A DNA stretch of 64,000 nucleotides from Chiua virens (Eukaryota > Basidiomycota > Agaricomycetes > Boletales > Boletaceae), in NCBI GenBank assembly GCA_019787685.1, contig JAHNUO010000011.1, positions 1,860,001 to 1,924,000 on the forward strand, read 5' to 3'. Shown here one piece after another: positions 39,795 to 62,467 of the stretch. The position numbers were made by a program, and so were the translations under genes. The notes below the pieces were generated by a model. The model saw only the letters and a list, made by a program, of their open reading frames with translations, had not been told where the DNA came from and ran no database searches. Position 1 is the stretch's first letter; every line of letters starts with the position of its first letter.

Positions 39795-40059
39795 ATGTCT
39801 GGCTCGAAGTGCACCACCCCCCATTGCCTCTCACCACTCTCGGACCCCACCTCAAGAAAGCATGCGTGGAATTTCCATGTCACCCCTATCGATTTCTCTA
39901 TGAACGGCATGTCCTTGCGCTTTCGTATAAGTGATGGCAAGCTAGTTTGCCCCTTCCCTGGGTGCTCCACATCCTTGAATAGAAGGGACCGAGCGACGAA
40001 ACACGGCCGTGATATGCATAGCCTCTCTGAAGACCTTCTTGTCTTCGAAAAGCCCTCTG
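39795..40059 (+). pseudogene. Truncated C2H2 zinc-finger (OrsD-like) gene, first exon only
   Basis: The frame gives 88 residues, MSGSKCTTPHCLSPLSDP... with a C2H2 zinc finger (CPFPGCSTSLNRRDRATKHG, ending RDMH), and runs to a consensus donor CTCTG|GTGAGTG. It is a close paralogue of the first exon at 58198-58456, same length class and same donor, but the downstream exons found there (58512-59034) are not found here; the sequence passes into repeats and palindromes. Such N-terminal fingers are found in OrsD-type proteins that often accompany transposon or RecQ-like helicase genes (general knowledge, not shown here). It could still be the 5' exon of a longer unresolved gene. Confidence 0.5.
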
Positions 40060-40939
40060 GTGAGTGACCATTCTAGTACATTTTTACAAATACATTAGGG
40101 TAAGGGTAAGGTTCGGGTAAGGAAATGACTACATGTATGGCGCACTTCAAGGTATATGTGATATGCGCACAATCCAACAATATAAACTACTAATATAAAA
40201 GCTATATACCAAACCAAAAATGGTAATTTGACTGCATATTACACAATCACGACAGCATTTGAATTATTTAGGACAGAGCACAAAATATAAATAATACATT
40301 GTGAGTTTAAGATAAGTCTAAATTGAGCAGGTGAAGTTATTTGCACATGTGTGATGATGTCGCCTGCTGCATTTAGACTTATCCGAAAGGTAAAATTAAT
40401 TATTCATGTTGTGTACGTAGTCTAAGTTTGAAGTACATGTATGAAGAATGGATCAGATGGCGCACTTCCACAAGTGAATGAAATGCGCGAAATATATGAA
40501 TAATTAGCTCTACAGTACGTTGACATCCATGGAACTGTAGGAGTACGGGACACCCGGGACAGGTTGGACGGGTGTCCATGGGTGTGGGTTGCCATATATG
40601 GAACTACCATGGATCATGGGGTGCAAGCGCACATCCCTGACCTCCTACACCTCACGGACCTCACCTGTCTTCCCCGCTCTGCTACCCCTACGCATAGATC
40701 ACTTGACGACGACGACGTGGCGAACAACCGTGTGCCACCTGGAGACGGCGAAGTCACAAAGTGCTGCGATGACGACGCAGGACATTGTCGCATCGCTGTA
40801 GTGCTGCACTGGGACGTCACCTACTGTGGACTCCCCCTTCCTTCCCCCTCAGGCTCCTCTGTGCCACCTCACCTCACTATTTCGATTTCCCTGCTTGAGG
40901 CTCGAGGAGCCGGACGCGAGGAATGCCACGACGACCCCC

Positions 40940-41600
40940 CTGCTCTCCTCTCCCCACACCCCACGATGGCGACCCACCACCAGTTCATTGTGACGAGACG
41001 ACAACGACAACGACGACTCCACTCCACCTCCCTCCCTCTCCCTCCTGGAGGCTTGACGAGGCGAAGGTGACGAACGAGGTGACGACACCCCTCCTCTTCT
41101 GTCCCCACACCCATGATGGCGACCCACCACCGGTTCATCGTGACTCCTCCTCCTCCTCCTCCCATCTTCTCTGTCTCTGTCTCCTCCTCCCCCCTCGAGG
41201 CTCGAAGAGTTGGACACAACGAATGGCACGATGACCCCCCTCCTCACCTCTCCCCACACCCCACGATGGCGACCCACCACCGGTTCGTCGCGACGAGACG
41301 ATGACGACGAATCCACTTCTCCTCCCTCCCTCTCCCTCCTGGAGGCTTGACGAGTTGAATGTGATAAACGAGGTGACGACACCCCTCCTCTTCGCTCCCA
41401 ACACCCCATGACGGCGACCCACTACCGGTTCATTGTGACAACGACAACTCCTCCACCTCTGTTCTCTGTCTCTGTCTCCTTCCCCCCCTCGAGGCTCAAC
41501 GAGTCGGACCCGACGAATGAGGTGATGACCCAGGCCCCCTCCACACCCCATGATGACGACCCACCACCGGTTTGTCGCGATGAGACGAGGATGCGATATA
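40940..41600. repeat. ~150-bp tandem repeat, about five diverged copies
   Basis: The word GATGGCGACCCACCACC and close variants recur at about 40965, 41114, 41265, 41410 and 41553 (spacing 143-151), each followed by GGTTCATTGTGAC-like text and a Pro/Leu-coding C-rich stretch. Copies are diverged. The long frames across it (for example 40849-41409 minus) are repeat-derived and not supported as genes. Confidence 0.75.
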
Positions 41601-42286
41601 TGTCGCATTGTCGAAACGTCGCGTTTACTGCCCTATACCTTAAGGCTCCTGCACCTTGCCCTCTCACGCCTCCCCCTGCAAGTCATACGCTGCTCCTCAC
41701 TCCTCACCCTCCAACCCTTTGTGTGAGGGCGACGAGATCGAATGGGACATGACACGACACGACGACGACGCGGCAATGAGTCGCATTGTTGTTGTGTCGT
41801 GTTCATCTTGCCTCGTCTTCACATCGACCTCTCCTCGCGTGCAGGCTTCGGATCGCCAGATCATGAGAAGGCCAGGACACGAGTGCTCCCACGCGTCAAC
41901 TCCCTTTGTAGCCCTCACCCACACCTGTCGTGCGAGGTGGACACGAATGCCACAATGAGCCACAATGATAATGCCGCGCGGTGAGACAATATCAAAGTGT
42001 ATCACTGAGCCTGCACGTCACCCTCCCTGCCAGAGCACGTTACCTACCCTCCTCCATGGATCTTTGTACCACCTCACCCTCGACCACATGGATGGATGGC
42101 ACAATGACACGATGTGAAAACGAAGAGGACGAGGATGAGGACGAGGACGAGGATGCGGCATGGCACGGCAAAGTGATACGACGTGCCAGGACCACTCCTC
42201 TGTCCTTCTCTGCAGTGTGTGTTCAGGTCACTGCAGACAAGAAGGAGGACACAGCGCCATGACACAACGCAACGTGCTACGAAGAA

Positions 42287-42287
<1 letters not shown>

Positions 42288-42318
<31 letters not shown>
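42288..42318. repeat. (GAC)n microsatellite
   Basis: About ten perfect GAC/CGA triplets. Confidence 0.9.
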
Positions 42319-42912
42319 TCCCTCCTGTTCTCCCCTCCCCCCTCCGTCTCCATGCCACCTCCACGCCAACAACGTCACACGACAACATCGACACAGTGAA
42401 GACGAGAGGATAACACAACGCGCCGACGATGCGACACATTGTGGCATTGTCCACGCGTTGTGTTCAACCCTTGTGGATGTTGAATCACACCGGCCGATGT
42501 GACTGCCGACTCAGCAGGCGATGAAAACACCGCAGAAACCACAATCACAACGAAGACATGAAGCGACACGACCAGAACGATCGTGGCGAGTCAAGTTGTC
42601 GACCGAGAATCGGCGCCAACTTCTGGTGCCTTCTCCACTGGGAACACGCAGGCCAAGGTGAGCCCATAGCTGAGATGTATACTTTTCTGACAGTAGAATA
42701 ATATATAAGTACGATACAAATGAATGTGATATAGCGCGAGTAATACAGCTGAATGGCGCACTTGTAATATACAATGATATGCGCGGATAAGCAGAAGCGC
42801 CGATAGCACGTGATGTAAACGCTCGTAATACCAAATTGAGAAAGTTAAAATGAAAGAATAAGTGGTATCAGATCAATTCGAATATTTGTACCACGATCTA
42901 CGATCTAACCAC

Positions 42913-45900
42913 ATGCCCAAAAATACGACCGATACGAAGGGGAAGGGGAAGGGATCCGAAACGGCGATGAAGAAAAAAGGGAGAAGTGAAGGAGAAGGGG
43001 GTGGATCGAAGGTGAGTGATACAATACAATTGACAGAGTACACGAAGCTGAAAGTAAGTAAAAAATACAGAATACCGTCGGATCTTCTTTGTTGCTGAAT
43101 AAAGGGCAAGTGAAGACGGGAACGTTCACAGCCGCAGAGAAGGCGGATGTCGAGAAGGACAAGCGGCTGTCGAGCGCGTTGATCGGGTATTCGAAGTTCG
43201 ACGTGGTGACCAACAAGTCGAAGATGACGTTCCGTCGGTGGAACGACCGGGACTTGATCAAGGACCAGGTGAACAAACTGGTAACGTCGTTCATGGTCGA
43301 CGGAGTCAACCGGTTCAAGGTGGCGAATGCGATCCCGGTTGCGATCCGGAAGGAGGACGTCAAGGCAGGCAGCTATGGGTCTGACGGGCATGCGATGGAA
43401 GACCTGAAATATATGGAACTGACCTTAGATGCACAGAAGCGTGTGATTGAAACCGGGCAATCGGCGATCATTGTTGCGAGCGGGCAGCATCGAATTGCAG
43501 CATTGGAGCAATACCACACGTTTCTCGGTAAAGCGAAGAAAGAGAGCGTGAGGGGAATGAAGGCACTGGAGAAGACGAAGCTCACGGACGTCGACGACAT
43601 GGAGATCGACGAGGAGAACAAGATCGCGAAGCCGAAGCGAGATGAGATTGACGGTTCTATAGCGTTTGGTGGAGAGTGGATCGTGATCATTTATGACCTA
43701 GGTGAGTCGTTGATTTCATTGTGGTAACCGTCTAGTTGACACGGTGCACATCGATTGACGCTCGATGTGCGGCATACTTTCTGCGCACATCAGTGTGTAC
43801 TCGATATGCGCCAGATCATACACATGCATACACGGTATGTTCGATTGCGTCAGGCTGACACTAATTTGTAGACAAATTGGACTACGAACTTGGGCTACAC
43901 CTCTCTAGAAACCAATACGAACACGTATATAAAGAATCGCCTGAAGAAGGACTTGTACAAAAATTCAAGATGCACTCAGCGAAACCGTCCCCGAAGAATG
44001 ACTGGAAATCAGTGCCGACGCTCGCTGTATCAAAAGGAACCGCATACAAACAAAACGATCTATTGCGTATGGACTACGCGTGGGCGTTCCTGGACAAATT
44101 CGTGCCGATGGGGACGCAGATTTTCGACCGCAAGGGGTCGTTGAAGTTGGCACCTCTTCATTCGACAATGATGGGACCGTCTGGTGGTGTAAGTCCGACA
44201 ACCTAACAGATTTTATTCGACTTGGAATCTAATACTACGCTACAGGTTTTAACGTATTTTTGTGACGCTATGGAGAAGGTCTTCCGGATGTGCTTCAACG
44301 CGAAGGACATGGACTTCGAAGACATCCCGCAAGATGATGCTGCCGCATCAGCATTGATGCTCAAGGATTTGAGGAGACAGGTTCCGATCGTTGAAGCGGT
44401 TTTACCACCGATACGGGACATCGTGAATGCGGCGTTCGTCGAGCACCTGGGACCTGGGACAAGCGCATCTCATGTGTTCGCATGCGGCGAGGACGTTGAG
44501 TGGAGTAGCGCATTCTGGCTGTACGTCGAGACCGTCGTCTCCAGTGTGTCTGACACCGTCGACGAATTGGAGAGGTCCGGAGAGATCGCCATGATGGGAC
44601 TGTCGGATGAAGCCAAGAAGGCGGTGCACAACTGTGCACCGAAAATGCAGTTCGTTCTCAGTCTCGCAAACTGGAACGACGAGCAAGGTTGTATGTTTCC
44701 TTTCATGTGTCGAGCCGTGTATTCACACATGGAAAGTCTACTCGACATTATTCCAGATGCATTGACGGAGGTAAGCAATATATTCCGTTCATTTATTCAG
44801 TTTGTTCCATACTCTATATGCGCTAACCGTTCGTAATCGACTTGTATTGTGTGTACACACATGCGACCTGTGTGTTCGCGCATTTCGATAAAACCCCTAT
44901 TTGCGCAGATCGTCGGTACACACGACATTGTTACTGACCGTTTTTCATCTCACAGTTGTCGATGTGGTTCAGTCCTTACCTAGCGTACAAGGATTTGCAC
45001 CCGCCTCCGTGGAACCCAGGAGCTGACACGGCGGAACTTAGACGTGTGGTGTTGTCGCATCCAGACATCAAGCCATCACGCCGCATTGTCGTTCTTCACA
45101 GTGTACGATTGCACCGCGATTCTTGTCACACGCTGATAAAAAAAACCATACAGATTATGCTGTCAATATGGTACAACTACCCTGCCTACATCAATCTACA
45201 ACGACAACTGACGCAAATGAACATCCCAACACGCCCGAAGAAAGTCATGGAACTACATGCTCTCTTTGGCTACCTCAAGCGATCTGCCAAGAAGGTCGAT
45301 GGAAGCGACACCGACGTTGTTGACGATGATGTCGAAGAAGAAGAGATTGACGACGAGCCGGAAGATATCGAAGGTGTCATGTTGCGCGACTCGGATGCAA
45401 ACGGTGCAGATTCAGATGTGCTGAGAGAAGAGCGTGCGAAGAAGCGGGCAGAGAGGGACTCACGCGACGCAGAACTCAAGGCGTTGCACAACGATGTCAC
45501 GACGATCATCAACGCGTGCAGCAAGTACAAGAAGGACGCTAGCCGCAAGGACCCGAAGACCAACATTCCAGACATAAACGGTCCGTGGAGTCGCGCGTCC
45601 AAACTTACTGGAGAAGCCGTCAACAATGCTCGGTTCCCAGGTAAGCATACTTGGCGATTCCACACGGCAGAGTACAGCGCTATCTCCCTCAGTTCATACT
45701 ACCGACACATGCCCACGCTCGCTGCCATGATCCTCGCAGAGGCCAGCGCTGTCCTCTCGTATCGTCCTGCACTCATTATGTACCAACCGGACGGTGGTGC
45801 TGCATTCCTGCGCAACAAGTTCGAACACGACGCCGCTCGCCATCTCGTTTCGACTTCTTCTACGTCGTCCACACTCGTTCAGAAGACTCTCTCATTAGGA

Positions 45901-47676
45901 AAACAGAAGAACGTATCGAAATGGATACCTCAAGACTACCACGACCCTCCTCCTGGTACCTTGACATGGCCTGACGGGATCTACAACCCGACTTACGTGG
46001 AGTGCGCGTTCTCTCTAGAGCAAGAACTGACCGACTATCACCGCGAGACGAAGCTCGTGCATCAACAACGTGCCTTGCAAAAGGCCGTCGACTACATCGT
46101 GACGGTCCCATCAGCATGGGCCGACTGTACAGGCGCACTCAAGTTCCGCGACAAGCCCGCACTTCACACTGCCGTCGTGACGTCTTTGGTCAACCTAGTC
46201 GAGGTGTGTGTGTTTCGATACCTATTCAGTGTGTCATGTTACATACTGAGATTCATTCAGACAATGAGCGACAACGCATACGTTCAACGTCAATATCCGC
46301 ACGACGATGACTTTGACCCGTTAAAGTCACGCAATCAGGAGGAAAAATTGCGCATCGATGTCCCTGGTCACACGGCGGCTAGATCTACGTCCATTCGATA
46401 CATGGAATCAAGGGCGTTTTATGTTTACACGCGCAAGGAAGCCAACGACTTGTTACATGATCTCCGACAATCATTCTTGAATTCTGTTGAGCTGGCTCAG
46501 GATGGGAGTGAGCTGATGGGCGAGTCTGAGACCATGGGAAGTGCTGAGACGATGGGCAAAGATAAGACGACACAGGAGACGGTCGAGTCACAAGGTTCGT
46601 CGTGTTTCAATCATGTTGCATTTATGTGATTATGTTGATCATCGACGTATTATCATACATACAGAGGTAATTCAACAGGCAGTGGAAGCACGTACCGTGA
46701 CCCCACGCTCTGACGAGAGGATGGACATCGACGACCCTGTAGCGCCACCAGCCGATGAAGCGTCAAGTGAGATAGCGTCTGACGTTTTAGATGAATATCA
46801 CCCGGATCAGATGGAGTGTCGAGTGTCCGCCGATGATGCGACGACTCCGATTGCAACTCAAATGTTACCGCCGAACCCTGATGGTGAGTGTGGTTCATAA
46901 TATTACAATCATCTACGTTGACGTGTGGCCTGCGCACTTCGACGTGTACATGATGTGCGCAATGTATGCGCATTTCACACGATGTGCGATGTGCGCGATA
47001 TATGCGTTTTCATGTAGAGTAAGTGTCTACGATTGTGTATGTCCACAGATATCTCACATTTTAACCTTGACTTTCAGTCTCGTTGATATTCATCAATATC
47101 GTTTCCGTTCGCATCACTAATATTCCGTTCATATTCCTCAGATCACCTGGCCTTCTTATTATCTACGGAATGTGAGTGGCATCGTTCGACATTCACTTCA
47201 CTCCTTATATCTCACATCCAATCGGATTTGTAGCACTCGCGAAAGAGGTTGCCGCCCTTCGCCCACTATCTCACGTATCGACCAGCACCGGTCATACACC
47301 CGAACCTGACACAATCAATTCCGATCAGTATAAGGTTTCTGCCCTCGTCTCATCAGACAACGATCCAATTCTACACAAGCGCGACGCCTCCAAGTCCCTT
47401 TCATCAGTCGATGAAGCCGGCACAATGACAAGTCACTCTTTCTCGCTGCCTCCACACTGCACACTCACCACATCCTTCCCAGAACCACCTCAGAAGAAAT
47501 TTCATCAACGCAAGAAACGTCAGCCGGACCCGCAAGATACCATCGCCAGTCATTCCGATACTCCCGTTCCATCCTCATCCACCGCTCCCAACGCCGTTCG
47601 CACTCGGGCTTCAGGTTCTCGTGCAAAATCCGCGAGACCGGCAAGTTCAAATCAGCTCCCCTACGTCTCCGGTTGA
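42913..47676 (+). CDS. Giant gene A: ParB-like domain protein, unknown function
   Basis: Ten exons: 42913-43011, 43071-43701, 43872-44188, 44246-44770, 44956-45102, 45154-46203, 46261-46594, 46665-46883, 47142-47171, 47234-47676; all phases fit, about 1264 aa. I do not recognise the whole protein. Residues ~70-260 read like a ParB/sulfiredoxin fold: helix LIKDQVNKLVTSFMVDG, strand AIPVAI, the box AIIVASGQHRIAALEQY (compare GERRxRA in ParB), then WIVIIYDLDKLDYELGLHLS, matching the ParB xVPVIVxDLxDxxALELALxEN step. An acidic patch lies at VVDDDVEEEEIDDEPED; the C-terminus is Ser/Thr/Pro-rich with basic clusters, perhaps a nuclear signal. The last small exons are less certain. Three introns (2, 4, 8) are unusually long and carry palindromes. 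Confidence 0.75.
43741..43816. repeat. Two palindrome-family hairpins in intron 2 of gene A
   Basis: GGTGCACATCG...CGATGTGCGG and CTGCGCACATC...GATATGCGCC lie back to back. They are degenerate members of the palindrome family, here within a 170-nt intron. Confidence 0.5.
46931..46961. repeat. ~31-bp palindrome in intron 8 of gene A
   Basis: TGCGCACTTCGACG...TGATGTGCGCA. A second partly overlapping hairpin (ATGCGCATTT...GATGTGCGCG) follows. The host intron (46884-47141) is 258 nt, the longest in the gene. Confidence 0.7.
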
Positions 47677-48849
47677 GCTCATCCTTCCATCGCTGTCTTC
47701 GTGTAAGTATGTCTTTTTCCTGTTATCCTGAGCCTTCTATTTACTGCTTCCTGTCGACCCTTGACAGAAATTGTACTTGTAGCATCGTGTAGTCTGTATC
47801 CTCATGTCGTATTGTCAAATCTTGTACCCAGTGAATGGGATCTGTTTGCTGTATCTCCAATGACTCACATCGTGTGTTTCTTACAATGTCATCTCGTTCC
47901 ATTCATTCAGACAAAAAGGTCTATTCCTTGTCGAACTTGGATCACACGACCACCTGTCACAATATGTCAGGACAAACGAAACAGGTATCTCATGATGAAA
48001 CAGAAACGAAAACACAAACCACATTTACGCTTCCTTCTCCCTTGGCTGCACATTTCCCCCTGCCTTCATATACTCTTTGGACTTGCATTCGCATTTCAAC
48101 CATCACACAGATAACACGCGACTCTAAGCCTTCAGGTTGCCACGACCAGCTTTCACAACAGGTAAGCACACAGACAACGACCATGGCATTAAACAGAAAC
48201 GAATACACGTACCACATTGACACGAAGTTCCTCCCTTGTCTGCTAATCTTCCCCTGTCTTCATATCCTCTTTGGACTTGCATTTGCATTTCAACCGTCAC
48301 ACAGTTAACACACAACTCCAAACCTTCAGGTTGCCACGACCAGCTATCACAATATGTGAGCACAAATTAAAAATATTGATATCATTATTAAACAGAAACC
48401 AAATCACGAACCGCATTTACACAGGGTTCCTCCCCTCGTCTGCTACTCTTCCCCTCTCTTCATATACTCTTCTGACTTGCATTCGCCTTTCAGCCGTCAC
48501 ACAGATAGCACACACCTCCAAGTGGTCTGGTTGTGATGGCCGCCAGTGATTACAATGTCGATGGAATAGAGTGGTTGTTTATTTACGATTGTCGTCGGTT
48601 ACTGACAAGTCGGACATGTCAATAGTATGTGACATTCGAGTTGAAATAACTCAATTATGCGACATCACCCTTACCCTGCAAAAGCAAACAATAAGTCTAG
48701 ACCAGGGTCGGCACTATCAATTTCAACTTCGTCGTCGAACAGGTAAACACTGTCTCTCTCTCTACATTTTCTCCCTCCACAGGTTTCACTGGAATTTCTG
48801 CCAGCATTGCGTACTCCCGACGTAACCTTGCGCACAGCAATCGATCTCA
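47677..48849. other. Spacer between giant genes A and B
   Basis: 1.17 kb. It contains a ~195-bp tandem repeat in about three copies (listed). Upstream non-coding exons of gene B are possible, since a CCACAG acceptor-like site precedes an open stretch at 48783, but the first sensible ATG is 48850. Confidence 0.5.
47980..48550 (+). repeat. ~195-bp tandem repeat, three copies
   Basis: CTTCATATACTCTTTGGAC and variants recur at 48064, 48259 and 48459, each followed by ACACAG, then GTTGCCACGACCAGC and a GTAAGCAC/GTGAGCAC-like donor. The repeat therefore carries splice-site-like words in each unit. Confidence 0.65.
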
Positions 48850-51800
48850 TATGTCTGACACGGATGACAATGATGACCAAAACAACAAGTAAGTCATCAA
48901 TACACAGGTTTATATTATTAATCACAATGTTGATGGTGTTGTGACATGACATAGCGGCCAGATTCTCACTTATGAGGACGATGGAGATCACGACGAACCC
49001 TTTGATGCCACGGCCGTCCCTCGAAGGCTGTTGGCGGATGATGCTCCCCCTCAGCAAGAAGTACAACAGGCCATGTATGGTCACAGAGATGGTCTACTTT
49101 ACGACCATGTTGAAGCGTTCAATATCTCTCGAGCTGCCAAGATGTCGTTCAATCAGCTGGATTCGTTGCGGCAGAACAATCATGCTAAGCGTGCAATCAG
49201 AGTTCTCTCAGGCAGACATCGGCTCGAAATTGATGAGGAGCACCGACTGGACCCCACAGACCCAAACATGGTGGTCGCAACTGGTCCCCACTTTCTGGAT
49301 TTTGTGATGTACATCGGAGGTAGACGAGGACTCGACGCAGTATTACCGAACACGGAGGTGGACCAAACGTGGACTCTCAACATCAACACGTCGATGATAC
49401 ACCGGCTGTGGCCGTCTGGAAAAACGTCCAGGCTTCCGTTTAACGCCAATGGACGTCTCGTCTATTTGGGGCAAGTGCGTCAGGAGCAATTCTGGATTGC
49501 AATGGCCCCAAACGAATGGTTCGAACCGGATCATAACTTCAATGCGACTGGCAATTGGCCAGTTCTTCCTGCACGGACGACGGTCATGGACAGCAAGCAT
49601 GCTCTAATGATCATCATGTTCATTGCAAAGATGTTCGCAGATAGACGCCTACAAGATTTTCATTGTGAACCAGCATACCCCGAAATACTCACTCGGCAGT
49701 CTGTCAATGACGCGACGGAAATATTGTGAGTTTCATTTCTATGATCGCGCACTTGTATATACCTATGATGTGCGCGTTGTCAACGCATCGTGTGGCACGC
49801 AAGTGATGGGAACATCTGAACCATCCATGGTACCTACATTGAAGTGCGCTAGCTCTTCGTTTTGTTGACGATACCGTTTCACACAGTGGAAGAGATCGGG
49901 AGAGGGGAAGGAATATAGAACTTCGATTGGTCGACGCTCAGATTTTGCAGGATGACTTCCTCGATCATTGGGATGCTTGGCTTGAGGAAGCTCCAGATGC
50001 ATGGAAACGCGACGGATTTCTCACCAACAACAGCCCTGTCGCTATAACGATCCGTTACGGTCAAAACCAAGAAATTTTACTACCAAATCTGGCTTCAACA
50101 GAGAGGAGAAACTTCCACAAAGATCGCGACTATTCATTCATTAAGTCGTTCACATTCTCTATAGCGACTCACATAGGGTGCGTAGCATACGTCCACTCGT
50201 CATTCTCTCATCTCACAGTATCCATCGCCCAAGATTCATCAACGTTAGAGAATGGTCTGATATGTCCGTACAGGAAATCATGATGGACAACCCAGAGGCA
50301 TATGACAAGGACGATGAAGACCCTTCTCGAGAAATCGTAGACCTGAACACGTATCCGAATTACGACGTCTTCGGCGATGAAATCCCTGTATATGGAAAAG
50401 GAGGTTTCAAGATATTCAGACGACGGCCAGAGGTTGCCGACTCTTGTGGAAGCCTTATGGACCTGGGTGCAGCTCACACATTGTTCGAAGGTGCCCAAGA
50501 AGCACAGGGAACCGGCGAGAATGCAGTCAGATTTTCGGTATACCCTCTAGCCTTTACTCAGTATCTCGGCAACATCCAGGCCGATGGATTGATGGTCCCC
50601 TTCAAACGGAGAATGGATCGCCTCGATGCTAATATTAGACAAGGCTTACAGGAACTTGCCGATGCTGAAGATCAAGAAGCTGAGCTTGTCGGTCGCATCA
50701 TTTACCCTGTGAACTCACAGGCATATAATGCACTCTCTCACCGTGTACGCAGTGAAGCGAAGTTTCATGCAGTGCAGCTCGGCCTGATGACTAGCGTGTT
50801 CTCTGGAACAACGGTCGAGCGTGCCGCATTGAAGACTCTTTGGTCAAGCCGTCTCAGGCTGTGTAACAATGGTCTCCCACACGAGCGATTTGACCGAAAG
50901 GTGTCAGGCGAGGACCAGCCCGAGTGTATGAGATTCGAGAATACCTATCGTGTCGACGTGTTTCAATTACCGAGTCGCCGTAAAAATGGTCGGTGAGTTG
51001 ATCAACGATTTCACGACACAACCTAGATCATAGGACATACCATTTCGCGCACTTCATCAACCATATGTTGTGCGCGAACTTATTTCATTGCATTGTGTGT
51101 TGGTGCTTCTGCTTATACAATACACAGGTTCATTTATGATAACATCATTGCACCTCTTGGGAAAGCATGGAGCCACCCTTCAATTCTGAGTGCGATCAAA
51201 AACACGAGCATAGTGTTCAAGAAAGAGGTTCGTCCTTTTTGTTCATGTAGTTTCACTCACGCTCATTACTGTTCCACAGTTCATCCCAAAACTCTTCCAA
51301 TCTGCTAGCTATCCACTCACGTCCCTTCTAACCCATTTTTGGAACACATACAAAAACGACCTGAAGGAAAATTACGCCATTGATCCCTCTGTTGTCGAGA
51401 TGGTCGCGATGCTCGAACGAGCACTCAACTATGCTCATACAGGTAGCGCTCGAGTTCTGACACGCAAATTGATGGATAGGTCATGGCTATCGCTCTCTGT
51501 AATTAAGGATGGCCTCCCTTCAATATCACCAAAGTTCATCACACACGCGTCTTTATCAACTGGCCTTATCATGATCGAATTGGATAAATGGCCTGTCGAC
51601 AAGGCAACATCCCGTCCACTGACTGCTTCTCGCCGTACACAAGAACTCACATGGGGGTTAGATCACTATCAGGTATGTGTCATTATTCATACATTTTCGC
51701 GCAATTCCTTGTATACCTGAAGTGCGCTGGTTACTTCATGCCAACTCACTTTTGACCTCGATAGAACTTTGAAGCACGATTCACAATATCCCTTGCTATC

Positions 51801-53416
51801 GACAACATCCCTCAATCAAGCTACAACTTTGTCGCTGATCCAACACTCAGAGTACTGTGCTATATCTCTGAGATTGCCCTCAAGCGCTTCTTTAGTGATG
51901 TCAAGGTCCTTGTCAAAGAAGCAGTCTTGAAAGAGATCTCAAATGACCTCACGCTTCGTGGTCCCTCTGGCATTGCTGCACGTGAACGTCAAACTGCCCT
52001 CAAGTCCTGGCTTGATTGTGACAACCCTCTGTCATTCACCGAAGATGTTCTCCCACAGCTTCTCATGGCCATCGTGCCATTGCAACATCAAAAACTCACT
52101 CTCCCTTCCTCTCATTTAGGAAGTCAATCCATCGACTTTTTTGTCGACGCAATCATGACTCAATGTTCTTATCATGGCCGTATACTCCGGCCTCCTTTCA
52201 GTAAGAAGGGTCACTTTCATCATCTCGCTTCCATTGCAATCAAGGAATGTGAAAAGATCATTGCAATCTCTGACTTGCGCAATGAAGACTCTGAACAGCT
52301 CATCAAGGAATCCTTTCGTCTTGCTTCAATCACTCTCAAAATCAACCATATCCCTTGGTCTGCAAACCCTGATGGTGGTCGTGGTGCACCCTCCGTGCGC
52401 ATGGTCCACAATGTTTGGCTCAACCTTGGTGCAGCTTCACTTCATTCGAATCAACATTCCGCTGCCCTTATTGCAAGAAAGCAATCTCGTCAACAGATAG
52501 CTGTCCGTTCATCCATTTCTGTTCAGCTCAGTGATGCAAGAGGCGATTGGAATGCGCTGGACGTCAAACTGGTCGATTTTCATACCGTTATCCACAAGAC
52601 GATTCTTCCCAGAGAATTTGACATGCCATCATCAAACACAAGCACCTCTACCACAGAGGCTTACATTGAAGAGACGTACAACTACGTCCGCGCTGCCTAT
52701 GACCGGAACAAACCCTTGCATCATTTGGCATTGATCGCTTCGATTGCCTGTGCTGGCCTCCTGCCACATATTTATGCTCCAATGAAAATCACTCAACCTA
52801 AGCAAAATTCAAACTTTACGGACTGTCTTCGAAACCTTGAGTGGGAGACCCGTACAAAGCGAGGTGCTTCTCAAGCTCATATCTTTCTGAAAATGGTCAC
52901 ATTCTTCATCATCGCATTATATGACCAATCATCACCTATATTTTACAAGTCAGACAAGAGCGCATGGTTCAAGAAGCACTGTATGTCCATACCATAACCT
53001 CTCACTGACTCTCACTAACTCTCAGGCTGCCAGCTTCCAAGGGAATCACTGTCTTGTTGATATGCCGCCTTGGTCTAGCAAAGCCTGTCCAAGCGAGAGC
53101 CTTTCGATCAGCACAGTGGAATATCGATGTCAAACCTTTATCTACAGACGAGATTGACTGCTTGTATGGTGATGTTCTCGAATGTTTCCGCAAAGGTGGA
53201 AAACATGGTGGTTATGACGTGATCCATGTATTAATGGGGACTAAAACTGTACAAAGGTTGGTCAGTACTGGATTCATTCTTGCTAGATCGATTCCATCTC
53301 AGCCTCAACCTGATGCATCAAGCTCCAAACGATGCAGGAGTCATTTGGAAGATAGTTCAGACGTTGAAATTGTAGAAGTAAAGACTATGTCCAGTAAGGT
53401 GTCACGCAGACACTAG
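48850..53416 (+). CDS. Giant gene B: large protein of unknown function
   Basis: Eight exons: 48850-48887, 48955-49725, 49887-50177, 50219-50992, 51128-51227, 51280-51672, 51765-52980, 53034-53416; all phases fit, about 1321 aa. The start MSDTDDNDDQNN is the first good ATG. The N-terminus is acidic; later parts look folded and mostly helical (FHCEPAYPEILTRQSVND, TVERAALKTLWSSRLRL, NEDSEQLIKESFRLASITL). No catalytic motif recognised; a GRHRLE near residue 90 is too short to call. The last ~40 residues are Ser/Glu-rich (DASSSKRCRSHLEDSSDVEI). For the last intron the obvious CTCAG acceptor gives a stop, while CTGCCAG eight bases on keeps the frame. Introns 2, 4 and 6 carry palindromes; intron 3 is only 41 nt. 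Confidence 0.75.
49746..49776. repeat. ~31-bp palindrome in intron 2 of gene B
   Basis: CGCGCACTTGTATATACC...GATGTGCGCG with perfect 7-bp arms CGCGCAC/GTGCGCG, inside a 161-nt intron. Confidence 0.8.
51046..51076. repeat. ~31-bp palindrome in intron 4 of gene B
   Basis: CGCGCACTTCATCAACC...GTTGTGCGCG, perfect 7-bp arms, inside a 135-nt intron. Confidence 0.8.
51698..51729. repeat. ~31-bp palindrome in intron 6 of gene B, reverse orientation
   Basis: CGCGCAATTCC...CTGAAGTGCGCTG; the AAGTGCGC side is now on the right, so the element lies inverted relative to the others. The intron is 92 nt. Confidence 0.65.
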
Positions 53417-53572
53417 AGAATCATGTGACATGTCATGTGTATATTCCATCAAAACCAGTGTCTGAGTGTAGATAGTTAAACACTATAGTGTTTCATCCAC
53501 AATGAGTACCTATTATGTGTCTACTGAAATATATAAATAGAAAGGTAGTCTGTTCTCAGCATAACACCTGAG

Positions 53573-53713
53573 TTGCGCAAATACAGCATTCATTGATATG
53601 CGCAAGATATTATCCAAAAAAGCACACTTTCATGACTTACTAATAGACACATACAACACATTTATATTTGACGCCTGAGTCGCGCAAATCATGTACCCAT
53701 TGAAATGTGCAGA
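53573..53713. repeat. Two palindrome-family hairpins downstream of gene B
   Basis: TTGCGCAAATAC...TGATATGCGCAA at 53573-53605 and CGCGCAAATCATG...AAATGTGCAGA at about 53681-53713; each is preceded by a similar 'CACCTGAGT/CGCCTGAGT' word, so a longer unit was duplicated. Confidence 0.6.
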
Positions 53714-54030
53714 TTGGGCTGTGAGGCCTTCCATGGGGGACCTAGGGTGCATTAACACATTTATACATCATATAATACCTTATATTTAGATGAAATGTTT
53801 GTCTAATCTATATTTGACATCTCTGCATGAATTTATTATGTTTATATATACTATATTTGTATGAACATGTATATAGTGATAATATATCAATCATTGGTAC
53901 CTTGTATTGGCTGTCACAATTTTAAAGGGATCTAATCTAATTCAGAGGGGGTTAGACAGAGGTAAGACCTACAAATTTGCACCCCAAAGCCGCAAATCTA
54001 CCATGTCGTCAAGTGCAGAATATATATTTC

Positions 54031-54784
54031 CTAGAGTGTAGTTATCCAAATCACATAGCATTTGCGGATATTTCATAACATGACATGTATAGATGTACGC
54101 ATTCCCGCGTATGGCGGGTATGCGAGTAAATAAACGAATGATTGATGATGTCATTAGACAGCCGCATTTGCGTCTGTGGCGGGTGTGCGATGTTTCGAGA
54201 CAATGAATGACTCAGTATTGTGATGTACAATTACAACACAAAGGAGCAACGGGAAATAACATGACATTCAACATCGCATTGCTGCCATGTGTGGGAATGC
54301 GTGACAAAATGTGTTAACATTCAATATTGCATTCCCGCTATGTGTGGGAATGCGGACACATATTTGACACATATTGTCCACATTCCCACACATAGCAGGA
54401 ATGCGATATTGAATGTTAACACATTTTGTCACACATTCCCACACATGGCGGCAATGCGATGTTGAATGTCATTTTATTCCACATTGCTCGATTGTGTTGT
54501 AACTGTACATCTTTTTGTCCGCATTCCCACACATGGCGGCAATGCGATATTGAATGTCACTTTATTTCCCATTGCTCGTTTGTGTTGTAATTGTACATCG
54601 CAATACTGAGTCATTGTCCCGAAACATCGCACACCCACCACAGACGCAAATGCGGCTATCTAATGACATAATTGATCGTTCATTTATTACTTGCATTCCC
54701 GCCATATGCGGGATTGCGTACATCTATATGTGTCATGTTTGAAAGATCCGCAAATTCCATGTGATTTGGATAACCACACTCTAT
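54031..54784. repeat. ~750-bp foldback of nested hairpins
   Basis: Outer arms: CTAGAGTGTAGTTATCCAAA near 54031 mirrors TTTGGATAACCACACTCTAT near 54784, and GTCATTAGACAGCCGCATTTG (54150) mirrors the text ending at 54667. Inner arms 54255-54362 and 54371-54478 pair around GGACACATATTTGACAC. The right half has one extra ~85-bp unit, so the two centres differ. Within it a small hairpin word, CATTCCCACACATGGCGG with AATGCG, recurs at least five times in both orientations. It could be a foldback transposon, a long hairpin RNA source or a terminus of a larger element. Confidence 0.75.
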
Positions 54785-55689
54785 CAAACGATGCCATTTT
54801 ATGTCATGGGGATCACTGATGGATGGATTTATTGTTATTATAGTTTGAACCATTACATACCACATGGTTTGTTCTCAGACACACATGGTATCACGTACAT
54901 ATGTATGTCAACTGCACACAAGACATATTATACCACAAATGTCAAAGATGGACATCAAACACTGTTTTGAGAAACATATCATATCAGTGTTATCAAGTCG
55001 CCTACTCAGCTTTCACAGAAATGTGCAGATCCAAACAGACACAATATCTGTATTGTCAGAGATACCAAGGTATATGTTACGATATCAACTTTTCCTCACT
55101 TCTCAACTCCAACGTTCAATCGATTCTAATCATAAAACGCCTCATGCCAAGGCTATCCAAAGGATCATATCCGATTGGCTGCCACAATAACACAGCACCC
55201 ATCAACACATGCCTCTTATCTTTCATTTCCCTTATCACTGACTCATCATCGGCAGTGCAAGGCTATGCTCTTATCTATGACTCATACCGACTCACACCTT
55301 ATCATCCAATAGGACACATTATGCTTATCTACGTAGTTCATACTCAGATTAGAACTCCGATATCCATGTAGTATATAAACCCCATGAATGACAGCCAGAG
55401 AGCTCTAACAAAGTTCTCTTGGAGTTTTTGCCTCTCTGCTGGACTGAACCCCCTCTCACTTCATCCACTACACTTTAACAGTCTAGCTTTGTTCTAGGTT
55501 GTTTCATTAGAACTTTGTTGCTTTCTTCGCCGTCGATACTACTGTCAAGTCACTCGACCTCGTCGTAGCTGTCTTACCACTAAACAAGAGGAACAAGCGC
55601 ACAGAGTAAGTCGCAACCCTTTGAACGGAAGATCATATCCTCTTCAGAAGCCGCTCGAGACCTATCTCTATGTCTCACCGTCTCCGGTA

Positions 55690-58197: not shown

Positions 58198-59034
58198 ATG
58201 CCTGAGTGTACGACGCCCCACTGCCTCGCCCCACTGGGAGACCCCACCACAAAAAAACACGCGTGGAATTACCACGTCACCCCCATTCCGTTCTCCGTAG
58301 CTGGTATGGTCATGAGTTTCCACGTGCATGAAGGGAAGCTGCTTTGCCCTTTCCCCCAGTGCTCCACGTCCTTGAATAGAAGGGACCGAGCGATAAGACA
58401 CGCCCGTGATATTCATGGCATCTCCAGTGACATACTCATCTTTGAAAAGCCCTCCGGTGAGTGAATGCCGCGACTCCAAGTCTACTACCGTCTCAAATCT
58501 GACCTCCAAAGTTACCTCTCTGACTGCGGGAGGCCACCAGGGGCCCAGTTCGTCCCCAAATACTCCTATAGTCATGCTGGACGATCCGAAAGAAACGAGC
58601 ACTAGTAAGTGACTTGAGCTACAGCCTCCGGCGTTCTTTCCACTGATGGCCCTTCAACCAGACCCAACCCGTCATCCCGCTTCCGTGGAGTCTGCAGAGA
58701 CTCCCCAAGAAACCTGTGAGCCAGCCCATGAATAAGCCACATAACCCGCTCACCTTTCGTTCCTTCGTTCCTTCGTTCCTTCTTTTTCTTCTTTCTTCTT
58801 CTTTGACCTCCATTCAACTCAGTCCGTCGCGGTGGCGAACAGAAGGTGGCTCTCAACCCCGACGTCAACTATCTAGAAGGTGGCGGCGTTCTTGACAAGC
58901 TTGGGATCTGGTATCACCATGGCCTTGACGTCTTCCTCTGCCGCTCTTGCAGCACATGCTTGACCCTGGATATTCTCAACGGCCACTGCAGAGGCCAGCA
59001 CAAAGTATCCATGTCCCCCGACCTATCTATATGA
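58198..59034 (+). CDS. C2H2 zinc-finger, OrsD-like N-terminal fragment, truncated by satellite
   Basis: Four exons: 58198-58456, 58512-58604, 58662-58715, 58823-59034; 205 aa. Exon 1 gives CTTPHCLAPLGDPTTKKHAW and the C2H2 finger CPFPQCSTSLNRRDRAIRHA with the closing RDIH. Exon 4 carries VLDKLGIWYHHGLDVFLCRS, then CSTCLTLDILNGHCRGQHK, resembling the second finger-like unit that opens OrsD-type domains. The frame then stops, and 25 bp later the GGTCAGA satellite begins. A donor-like GTATCC right after HK suggests that the original gene had an intron here and that its downstream exons were lost or pushed away. Intron 3 contains a CTTCGTTC/CTTCTTT microsatellite. Probably a transposon-borne gene; whether it is expressed is unknown. 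Confidence 0.6.
58756..58803. repeat. CTTCGTTC / CTTCTT microsatellite
   Basis: Pyrimidine tract in intron 3 of the zinc-finger gene. Confidence 0.8.
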
Positions 59035-59060
59035 GAGCTAATCTTGGACGCCCTAGATGG

Positions 59061-61807
59061 AGGGTCAGAGGGTCAGAGGGTCAGAGGTCAGATAGTCAGA
59101 GATAGACTGGGTCAGAGGGTCAGAGGGTGAGGGTCAGAGGGTCAGAGGGTCAGAGGTCAGAGATCAGAGGGTCAGAGGGTGAGGGTCAGAGGGTCAGAGG
59201 GTCAGAGGTCAGAGATCAGACAGTCAGAGGTCAGAGGTCTAGACAGGGTCAGAGGGTCAGAGGTCAGAGGTCAGACAGTCAGAGGTCAGAGGTCAGAGGG
59301 TCAGAAGGTCAGAGGGTCAGAGGTCAGAGTTCAGACTGTCAGAGGTCAGAGGGTCAGAGGTCAGATAGTCAGAGATAGACAGGGTCAGAGAGTCAGAGGG
59401 TGAGGGTCAGAGGGTCAGAGGTCAGAGATCAGATAGTCAGAGGTCAGAGGTCAGAGGTCTAGACAGGGTCAGAGGGTCAGAGGTCAGAGGTCAGACAGTC
59501 AGAGGTCAGAGGTCAGAGGGTCAGAAGGTCAGAGGGTCAGAGGTCAGAGGGTCAGAGGTCAGAGTTCAGACTGTCAGAGGTCAGAGGGTCAGAGGTCAGA
59601 TAGTCAGAGATAGACAGGGTCAGAGAGTCAGAGGGTGAGGGTCAGAGGGTCAGAGGTCAGAGATCAGACAGTCAGAGATCAGAGGTCTAGACAGGGTCAG
59701 AGGGTCAGAGGTCAGAGGTCAGACAGTCAGAGGTCAGAGGTCAGAGGGTCAGAAGGTCAGAGGGTCAGAGGTCAGAGTTCAGACTGTCAGAGGTCAGAGG
59801 GTCAGAGGTCAGATAGTCAGAGATAGACAGGGTCAGAGGGTCAGAGGTCAGAGGTCAGATAATCAGAGATAGACTGGGTCAGAGGGTCGAGGGTCAGAGA
59901 GTTAGAGGATCAGAGGTCAGAGGGTCAAAGGTCAGAGGTCAGACAGTCAGAGGGTCAGAGGTCAGAGGTCAGAGGTCAGAGGGTCAGAGGTCAGAGGTTA
60001 GACAGTCAGAGGGTCAGAGGATAGACAGGGTCAGAGGGTCAGAGGTCAGGGGGTCAGAGGTCAGATAGTCAGAGGTAGACAGGATCAGAGGGTCAGAGGT
60101 TAGAGGTCAGACAATCAGAGGTCAGAGGTTAAGGGTCAGAGGGTCAGAGGGTCAGAGATCAGAGGGTCAGAGGTTAGATAGTCAGAGATAGACAGGGTCA
60201 GAGGATCAGAGGGTCAGAGGTCAGATAGTCAGAGATAGACTGGGTCAGAGGGTCAGAGGTCAGAGGTCAGACAGTCAGAGGGTCAGAGGTCAGAGGGTCA
60301 GATATCAGAGGTTAGAGGGTCAGAGGGTCAGACAGTCAGAAGGTCAGAGGTCAGAGGGTCAGAGGTCAGAGGTCAGATAGTCAGAGGTCAGAGGGTCAGA
60401 GGGTCAGAGGTCAGAGGTCAGACAGTCAGAGGTCAGAGGTCAGACAGTCAGAAGGTCAGAGGTCAGAGGGTCAGAGGGTCAGAGGTCAGAGGTCAGACAG
60501 TCAGAAGGTCAGAGGTCAGAGAGTCAGACAATCAGAGGTCAGAGGTCAGAGGGTCAGAGGGTCAGAGGGTCAGAGGTCAGATAGTCAGAGATAGACAGGG
60601 TCAGAGGGTCAGAGGTCAAATAGTCAGAGATAGACAGGGTCAGAGGGTCAGAGGGTCAGAGGTCAGATAGTCAGAGATAGACAAGATCAGAGGGTCAGAG
60701 GGTCAGAGGTCAGAGGTCAGACAGTCAGAGGTCAGAGGGTCAGAGGTCAGAGGTCAGACAGTCAGAAGGTCAGAGGTCAGAGGGTCAGAGGTCAGAGGTC
60801 AGAGGGGCAAAGGTCAGAGGGTCAGAGGGTCAGAGGTCAGAGGTCAGAGAGTCAGAGGGTCAGAGGTCAGTGGGTCAGAGGTCAGATAGTCAGAGGTAGA
60901 CAGGGTCAGAAAGTCAGAGGTCAGAGGTCAGACAATCAGAGGTCAGAGGTTAAGGGTCAGAGGGTCAGAGAGTCAGAGGTCGGATAGTCAGAGATAGACA
61001 GGGTCAGAGGGTCAGAGGTCAGACAGTCAGAAGGTCAGAGGTCAGAGGGTCAGAGGGTCAGAGGTCAGAGGTCAGACGATCAGAGGTCAGAAGTTAAGGG
61101 TCAGAGGGTCAGAGGGTCAGAGGTCAGAGGATCAGAGGTCAGAGGGTCAGAGGTCAGAGGGTCAGAGGTCAGAGGTCAGACAGTCAGAGGTCAGAGGGTC
61201 AGAGGTTAGCTAGTCAGAGATAGACAGGGTCAGAGGGTAAGAGGTCAGAGGTCAGATAGTCAGAGGTCAAAGGGTCAGAGGTCAGAGGGTCAGAGGTCAG
61301 ATAGTCAGAGATAGACAGGGTCAGAGGGTCAGAGGGTCAGAGGTTAGATAGTCAGAGATAGACAAGATCAGAGGGTCAGAGGGTCAGAGGTCAGAGGTCA
61401 GACAGTCAGAGGTCAGAGGGTCAGAGGTCAAATAGTCAGAGATAGACAGGGTCAGAGGGTCAGAGGTCAGAGGTCAGAGGTCAGATAGTCAGAGATAGAC
61501 AGGGTTAGAGGGTCAGAGGGTCAGAGGTCAGATAGTCAGAGATAGACAGGGTCAGAGGGTCAGAGGTCAGAGGTCAAACAGTCAGAAGGTCAGAGGTCAG
61601 AGGGTCAGAGGTCAGAGGTCAGACAGTCAGAAGGTCAGAGGTCAGAGGGTCAGAGGGTCAGAGGTCAGAGAGTCAGAGAGTCAGAGGTCAGAGGGTCAGA
61701 GGTCAGAGAGTCAGAGAGTCAGAGGTCAGAGGGTCAGAGGTCAGAGGTCAGAGGTCAGATAGTCAGAGATAGACAGGGTCAGAGGGTCAGAGGTCAGAGG
61801 TCAGAGG
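59061..61807 (+). repeat. GGTCAGA satellite, 2.7 kb
   Basis: Almost uninterrupted GGTCAGA (7-mer) and GGGTCAGA (8-mer) units, with a recurring 17-18-bp variant TAGTCAGAGATAGACAGG, and higher-order blocks: a ~250-300-bp piece at about 59130-59370 recurs at 59400-59600 and 59630-59830. C, T and A changes are confined to a few positions. Open frames across it (Arg/Gly/Ser/Glu-rich) are repeat artefacts. It begins 25 bp after the truncated zinc-finger gene. Confidence 0.95.
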
Positions 61808-62467
61808 TTTGATCAACTGAGTACAAACTACACACAATAAGAGATAATATGACCATTGGCTAATGAGAACGAAGTCTTACATGTAGTGGACACAATATGT
61901 GGCAGAATAAATTGAAATAATGCCTTTGGACAGCCATAGCATGAGGCATGTTATGATGTGAAAGAATAAAATTAAAAAGAGTTAATGGTTAAGTCCATCA
62001 CTAGTGGGTCAAAGATAGCATCTGCAACATTTATAGAATTTTTTTCTTATGCAACAGTGACAACCACCTCATATACTGAATTCTTCTTTGATGATATAGT
62101 TTTATTATCCCACAAGTCTAAGAACATTGTCATTCATGTAGAACATTGTTAGTCCATCTCTTAGCCTTCATATAAGGGAAATTTACAAGCAGTGAAAAGA
62201 AATATGAGACATATTAGGGCATGTTGTATTATTTTGCCTGAATAATGTCATTTTAACAGCCAAGGACACAATAATGATGGTGCTATCAATGACCTTATAG
62301 AAGAGTATTCACAGTTAAGCTCCTCCATTTCCCAACCTCATGACAACATGAATATAGGCAGGAAAATAAAGGGCTTTCAATATAATAGTTGCAGCCACTT
62401 AGGCTATTACGTGGCTATTATGGGGTTATTATAGGGCAATTAGGGTATCTGAAAACACATTGATCGA
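61808..62467. other. AT-rich spacer
   Basis: 660 bp of AT-rich unique-looking sequence between the satellite and the last gene. No frame, repeat or RNA seen. It likely includes the promoter of the next gene. Confidence 0.5.

Follow-up and report, generated by a model that had tools for sequence, protein, structure and literature searches.

Introduction

The subterminal repeats of CACTA/EnSpm and Mutator-like transposons are protein-binding sites, of one type per family, that occupy the terminal few hundred bases of the element. In the bacterial ParB/parS systems, multiple palindromes are read by a protein encoded nearby. Anti-silencing of the VANC type works through an element-encoded protein that binds its motif and removes DNA methylation. 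The closest published likeness to the system described here is VANC21 of the Arabidopsis transposon VANDAL21: according to the sections of that study used here, the VANC21 motif lies in introns, intergenic DNA and terminal non-coding parts, differs between families, and VANC motifs grow by tandem repetition (PMC5735166). In the present work we analysed a palindrome that recurs in a mobile element of the bolete Chiua virens. The element lies in a window of 64,000 nucleotides (nt), C11:1860001–1924000 (contig JAHNUO010000011.1), and carries two large genes, here called A and B. Scans covered the whole assembly (GCA_019787685.1; 48.3 Mb, 136 contigs). Paralogous A/B pairs in the same genome have differing palindromes, which is a new observation of this work. 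Our results lean towards these palindromes being subfamily-specific sites of the A/B gene pairs, with a protein encoded by the same pair probably binding them as a dimer.

Results

The element extends from position 40070 of the window to about 53718 and contains 13 copies of a 29-base-pair (bp) palindrome with an 11-base spacer, which we call type I. Exact matches to GCGCACTT-N-TGATRTGCGC were found four times, against 0 expected from 100 shuffles. Among the 15 GCGCA..TGCGC pairs of the element, 11 have a total length of 29 and the others measure 15, 40, 40 and 65. The spacer is thus fixed at 11, not 11–14 as given in the first-pass annotation of this DNA. All 12 places reported there carry a site, with the starts corrected here, but those at 43744, 44878 and 53682 are only degenerate (3–4 mismatches), and one site, at 46968, had been overlooked. 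The same annotation had seen no copies elsewhere in the window; this holds at up to 3 mismatches, while at 4 mismatches six matches appear outside the element. Its remark that both orientations occur has little meaning for a near-symmetric site: the plus-strand reading fits equally well or better at 12 of the 13 sites, and the minus reading is better only at 53682.

None of the 13 sites overlaps an exon, with exons making up 7758 of 13650 nt, a result seen in 0 of 20,000 uniform placements. Five sites, none of them assigned a strand, are in flanks. These are the site 70 bp from the left end (40140..40168), which short relatives of the element have at the same offset, motif matches in the 5' flank (40460..40488), in the 5' flank of gene A (42756..42784) and in the 3' flank of gene B (53575..53603), and the degenerate last site of the element (53682..53710, 3' flank). 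The remaining eight, again without strand, are in six introns. Intron 43702–43871 holds a degenerate copy (43744..43772, 3–4 mismatches) and a motif match (43783..43811), the W intron described below holds a degenerate copy (44878..44906, 3–4 mismatches), and intron 46884–47141 holds two motif matches (46932..46960 and the overlooked 46968..46996). Single motif matches are found in introns 49726–49886 (49747..49775), 50993–51127 (51047..51075) and 51673–51764 (51699..51727). The earlier count of six sites in introns therefore becomes eight sites in six introns; the length difference that had been noticed is borne out, since the site-bearing introns measure 92, 135, 161, 170, 185 and 258 nt and the ten introns without a site 41–70 nt (Mann-Whitney P 0.0007). 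The gene A introns agree with the NCBI protein P0001, and those of gene B follow our own model, which differs from P0002 in places. The exons of the partial gene A models of types II and III (see below) are likewise free of sites.

The degenerate type I pattern GCGCAMWT-N11-WKWWRTGCGC occurs at 27 places in the genome and its reversed control at none. Specifically, nine places are on C11, five on C58, four on C66, two each on C41 and C62, and one each on C5, C9, C12, C47 and C71. The single places on C5, C9, C12, C47 and C71, and one of the two on C41, are each 70 bp in from an ATTCTAG end; the remainder belong to longer copies. The first-pass annotation had proposed a genome-wide count and a check of clustering beside homologues of A and B; all 27 places are within copies of this A/B element family.

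A search for recurrent inverted repeats covered four A/B loci (L070, L067, L068 and L069). It gave a type II palindrome, CCCGCATTTC-N12-GAAATGCGGG, in L070 and a type III palindrome, CCGAGAT-N15-ATCTCGG, in L067; the same search found none in L068 and L069. Type II has 20 places (C1 3, C11 5, C13 5, C48 6, C47 1), of which 18 surround type II gene A copies and two, C48:94490 and C47:122522, fall between two exons of gene B. Scanned as CCGAKAT-N15-ATMTCGG, type III has 38 places (C28 15, C47 8, C78 15) that coincide with the three type III gene A loci. A fourth sequence, type IV, occurs six times, three on C41, where the trio shares one intron, and three on C42. Each reversed control gave 0 places. 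All places of type II (20/20), type III (38/38) and type IV (6/6) are in the A/B loci of their own subfamily. When the four patterns are cross-tabulated over the loci read, which left out C14, C18, C23 and part of C21, the table is diagonal save for a single type I site that lies in L067, a type III locus, and is part of a truncated type I end.

The differing palindromes recur at homologous intron positions. The W intron of gene A (44771..44955, plus strand), which precedes the exon LSMWFSP, has a palindromic counterpart in types II, III and IV; the exon that follows it has the form (L/I/V)S(M/S)W(F/Y/W)(S/T)P. This intron is 185 nt with one site in type I, 316 nt with two sites in type II, 364 nt with three sites in the C47 copy of type III, and about 470 nt with three sites, its splice sites being uncertain, in type IV. 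On C28 and C78, also type III, four sites stand in a row at this position. In the C21 paralogue (L068) the intron has 58 nt and no site, and all five modelled gene A introns there are 56–59 nt long; for this reason the short intron is likely the older state. In gene B, the 92-nt intron at 51673..51764 (plus strand), has one type I site; the corresponding exon gap bears a single type II site on C48 and two sites of type III on C28, and this position appears to be palindromic in three types (I, II and III). Direct repeats that include the sites of the W intron are about 160 bases long in type III, 49 bases around two of the three sites in type IV, and 45 bases, scarcely longer than the palindrome, in type II; type I has none.

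Conservation within type I is confined to the arms. Information per base is 1.60 and 1.59 bits in the two 9-base arms, 0.37 in the spacer, and 0.21 and 0.25 in the 40-base flanks (chance 0.19). A total length of 29 also applies to 12 of the 13 pairs in two stretches of type III. Within type I sites the two halves match at 92 of 117 positions, as compared to 94.6 for randomly re-paired halves. Because the match within a site is no better than after re-pairing, each half is conserved for itself. A fixed distance with independently conserved halves fits a symmetric protein dimer on DNA, whereas RNA pairing would favour matched changes.

Gene A (JVU11DRAFT_8205; 42913..47676, plus strand) encodes 1264 amino acids in 10 exons, with a GQHR-like motif, and its spliced model is identical to P0001. 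Gene B (JVU11DRAFT_8206; 48851..53416, plus strand) is uncertain in its start codon and in some exons; its limits rest on our own model, P0002 and relatives elsewhere. No Pfam domain was recognised in protein A or B, for gene A at expectation values (E) up to 10. Paralogues of gene A are found on C21, C42, C41, C23, C14, C48, the other end of C11, C13, C47, C1, C28 and C78, and those of gene B on C21, C28, C78, C47, C48, C41, C42, C14 and C18. Five gene B copies, facing in both directions, lie at 181–501 kb of the 546-kb contig C21 and match the query equally. The order A then B is retained in C21 and C41 and, judged by gene positions, also in C28, C78, C48, C42 and C14. Between subfamilies, identity is 23–39% for gene A (matched pieces of at least 30 residues) and 29–49% for gene B. 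Gene A is the better candidate reader of the palindromes because it changes faster than B, and its lower conservation, as seen in these alignments, would suit a specificity factor. An AlphaFold2 model of gene A exon 2 was too poor to use (mean predicted local distance difference test score, pLDDT, 44; best PDB match E 0.9).

Relatives of gene B are mostly labelled PF26608/DUF8190. At least 24 of them, from Suillus, Pisolithus, Boletus, Paxillus and Scleroderma, are among the 26 matches listed, the other two being from Chiua. A search of a literature library found no paper with the name DUF8190. In the type II and III loci L070 and L067 a third gene stands upstream of A, with a weak match to a RING-like zinc finger that stays below the Pfam cut-off (E 5e-5 and 4e-7), and its product is a further candidate for the protein that binds the palindromes. 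Ahead of the type I gene A no comparable gene was found.

The left end of the element, ATTCTAGTACATTTTTACAAATA (40070..40092, plus strand), is a sharp border common to copies with unrelated flanks. It occurs at 22 places in the genome, all with at most 2 mismatches (3 were permitted) and 14 of them exact. The C58 copy is 99.5% identical over 40069–47575, the C62 copy 91% over 40069–45122, and the C66 copy, which stops at 49540, 97–99% over two compared pieces; two copies on C41 stop at 41561 and 40467. We call the element mobile because these copies have a common left end and differing flanks. Short relatives in which no gene A is listed retain the left end and the palindrome at 70 bp. In a comparison of the window with itself the inverted left end was absent at the right side, where the exact end of the element is undefined; the stretch 53680–53716 resembles, inverted, a stretch beside the left end of the short relatives. 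The flanks of the copies viewed, which were not searched systematically, gave no evident target-site duplication. Likewise, no transposase family of Pfam was found in A, B or five B relatives, again with the right end of the element undefined.

The copies stop at varying points on the right (49540, 47575, 45122, 41561 and 40467) despite the fixed left end. Among the 14 exact left ends, 12 face the nearer contig end and all lie within 62.2 kb of one; with mismatched ends included, 16 of 22 face the nearer contig end. Nine of the exact ends are on contigs below 175 kb, where nearness says little, and the five on contigs above 1.6 Mb all fit. This orientation and the ragged right stops recall telomere-attached, terminally truncated elements. 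At 40095–40122 the left end includes TTAGGGTAAGGGTAAGGTTCGGGTAAGG, which is telomere-like when read toward the chromosome end; runs of four TTAGGG units were absent from the assembly in a pattern search. Two differently truncated copies (L044 on C41 and L043 on C9) both continue into ATACAGAGCCTGGGGTAATTG, perhaps the end of another element joined at the truncation point.

Around the element, the stretch directly before it (39808–40067) recurs with 73–76% identity at 58205–58464 and on C79, C36, C83, C12, C9 and C40; it is perhaps an exon of a gene family. Positions 53921–55000 form a large fold-back repeat with copies on C10, C47, C36, C48, C23 and other contigs. To the eye this repeat holds its own series of imperfect palindromes, GCATTCCCGC..GCGGGAATGC, and a pattern search for these with up to 3 mismatches gave zero matches. 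Imperfect GGTCAGA repeats fill nearly 3 kb at 59060–61815.

Discussion

The first-pass annotation had suggested that a protein of the element could bind the palindromes. Of the explanations considered, this putative role accounts best for the observations, as all places found in the genome scans are in copies of the A/B family. Specifically, protein A or B, with A as the better candidate, would be the reader and would bind the palindrome as a dimer. Many sites along the element would let the reader coat its own element, and the coated element could stay open for expression and copying, as has been proposed here by analogy with the VANC proteins that act on VANDAL in Arabidopsis. An array of sites running through genes would have to use introns and flanks; exons cannot take sites without a change of the protein, and this would be the reason why the sites are in introns. 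We take the sites as self-addresses because VANC21 of VANDAL21 is their closest published likeness. More tentatively, and with rather more doubt than confidence, a self-recognition code can be envisaged in which each A/B lineage has a private palindrome and a giant reader of no recognised fold that marks its own kind. Site and reader would then diverge together and leave the lineages mutually blind.

Several points weigh against the main reading, that of subfamily-specific sites bound by a protein of the pair. The patterns were built from the same loci in which they were then found, which means that specificity is shown and not sensitivity; weaker sites elsewhere would escape. Type IV is based on three sites of one L069 intron that were noticed by eye. 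The A/B pair on C21 (L068) is the main exception, with an open gene A model, introns of 56–59 nt and no recurrent palindrome. Second haplotypes may be present among the small contigs (C28/C78 and C41/C42), in which case independent loci would be fewer than places. Only type III shows clear tandem duplication of its sites. In the half-site comparison, type III gives 108 of 135 against 108.2 after re-pairing, a weak test with sites chosen by their arms, and in type II, where the arms are invariant and nearly the entire palindrome is conserved, the test has little power. The window and C62 copies differ at 1 of 108 arm positions, 4 of 384 other intron bases and 18 of 1719 exon positions; copies as young as these cannot show whether the sites are under selection. 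It is also to be noted that the predicted structure of gene B (mean pLDDT 76) has no confident PDB match.

An unlikely alternative is that the sites are recognised by a transposase or recombinase of the element during cut-and-paste movement, like the subterminal repeats of CACTA or Mutator-like elements. The first site does lie 70 bp from a sharp left end, short relatives without a listed gene A keep both, and one truncated C41 copy stops exactly at a half-site (40467). On the other hand, the sites run throughout the element, mid-gene introns included, and do not cluster at the ends. Moreover, the self-comparison of the window gave no inverted left end at the right side, where the end is undefined and only 53680–53716 shows an inverted resemblance; the viewed flanks have no evident target-site duplication, and no transposase domain was recognised. 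An RNA hairpin had been named as a further possibility; such hairpins could, for example, control splicing or supply small RNA, and many sites are indeed inside transcribed introns. On folding, very stable structures (z −4.5 to −7.7) resulted for the four sites of types II and III that were folded, while among the eight of 13 type I sites folded, seven gave z −0.7 to −2.4 and one −5.3. Stability does not discriminate here, since any DNA palindrome also folds as RNA. In the window, five of the 13 sites lie beyond the coding genes. The symmetric identity of type I sites is not above that of random re-pairing, a test with little power in types II and III. We therefore consider hairpins quite improbable.

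Both the ParB and the inserted-repeat proposals come from the first-pass annotation and fare less well. It had called gene A ParB-like, and in fact the GQHR.AAL motif of gene A and a later LSRNQ..ESPEEG stretch presumably recall ParB boxes. If that were the case, the palindromes, which are multiple and private to the element, would be parS-like centromere or partition sites. This is very improbable, and the ParB label is not supported: besides the lack of a Pfam match at E up to 10, profile–profile alignment (hhalign) with four ParB proteins of bacteria, taken from plasmid records, gave probabilities of 0.2% and 0.1%, and the copies are integrated in chromosomes, for which a partition site would be of no obvious use. 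The other proposal was that the palindrome is a miniature inverted-repeat transposable element (MITE), an introner or another dispersed repeat inserted into introns. Introns with a site do look expanded, 92–258 nt in the window copy against 56–59 nt for homologous introns on C21, but only by tens to about 200 nt, and type I copies share nothing beyond the two 9-base arms, with flanks near the chance level and a spacer of low information. No copy was found outside the family in the 48-Mb scan, and the same intron of the paralogues has different palindromes. With no conserved unit beyond the arms and no dispersed copies, we reject the MITE and introner proposals, which are hardly credible for this element.

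If the palindromes are indeed sites of a protein encoded by the A/B pair, self-addressing by transposons through sites in introns would gain a further case, this one fungal and with proteins of no recognised family of known function. The four natural site types could then be used for mapping how binding specificity changes. Such a role would also offer a first lead to the function of the DUF8190 proteins, present in at least five other genera.

As compared to the described systems, the element shares with CACTA/EnSpm and Mutator-like transposons the repeated putative protein sites within a DNA element, with one type per family. It differs from them in that the sites are found throughout the element and in introns, and in that no transposase was recognised. 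With ParB/parS it has in common multiple palindromes and a putative reader encoded close by; the difference is that gene A fails the ParB profile tests and that the setting is a eukaryotic chromosome. VANDAL21/VANC21 is a plant system, whereas the A/B system is fungal and has proteins without a Pfam domain. In the sections of the Arabidopsis study used here, the VANC motif has 9 bases and forms dense arrays of the same orientation, while in C. virens a two-fold palindrome of 29–32 bp is present at low density (PMC5735166). In the same sections a family-specific motif is confined to the non-coding DNA of the element, introns included, and our exon check, which was full for the window copy and partial for types II and III, gives the same picture (PMC5735166). 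The type III sites of the W intron lie within a direct repeat of about 160 bases, which is in line with the growth of VANC motifs by tandem repetition, and as related VANDAL families have diverged motifs, so the four A/B subfamilies of C. virens have four palindromes (PMC5735166).

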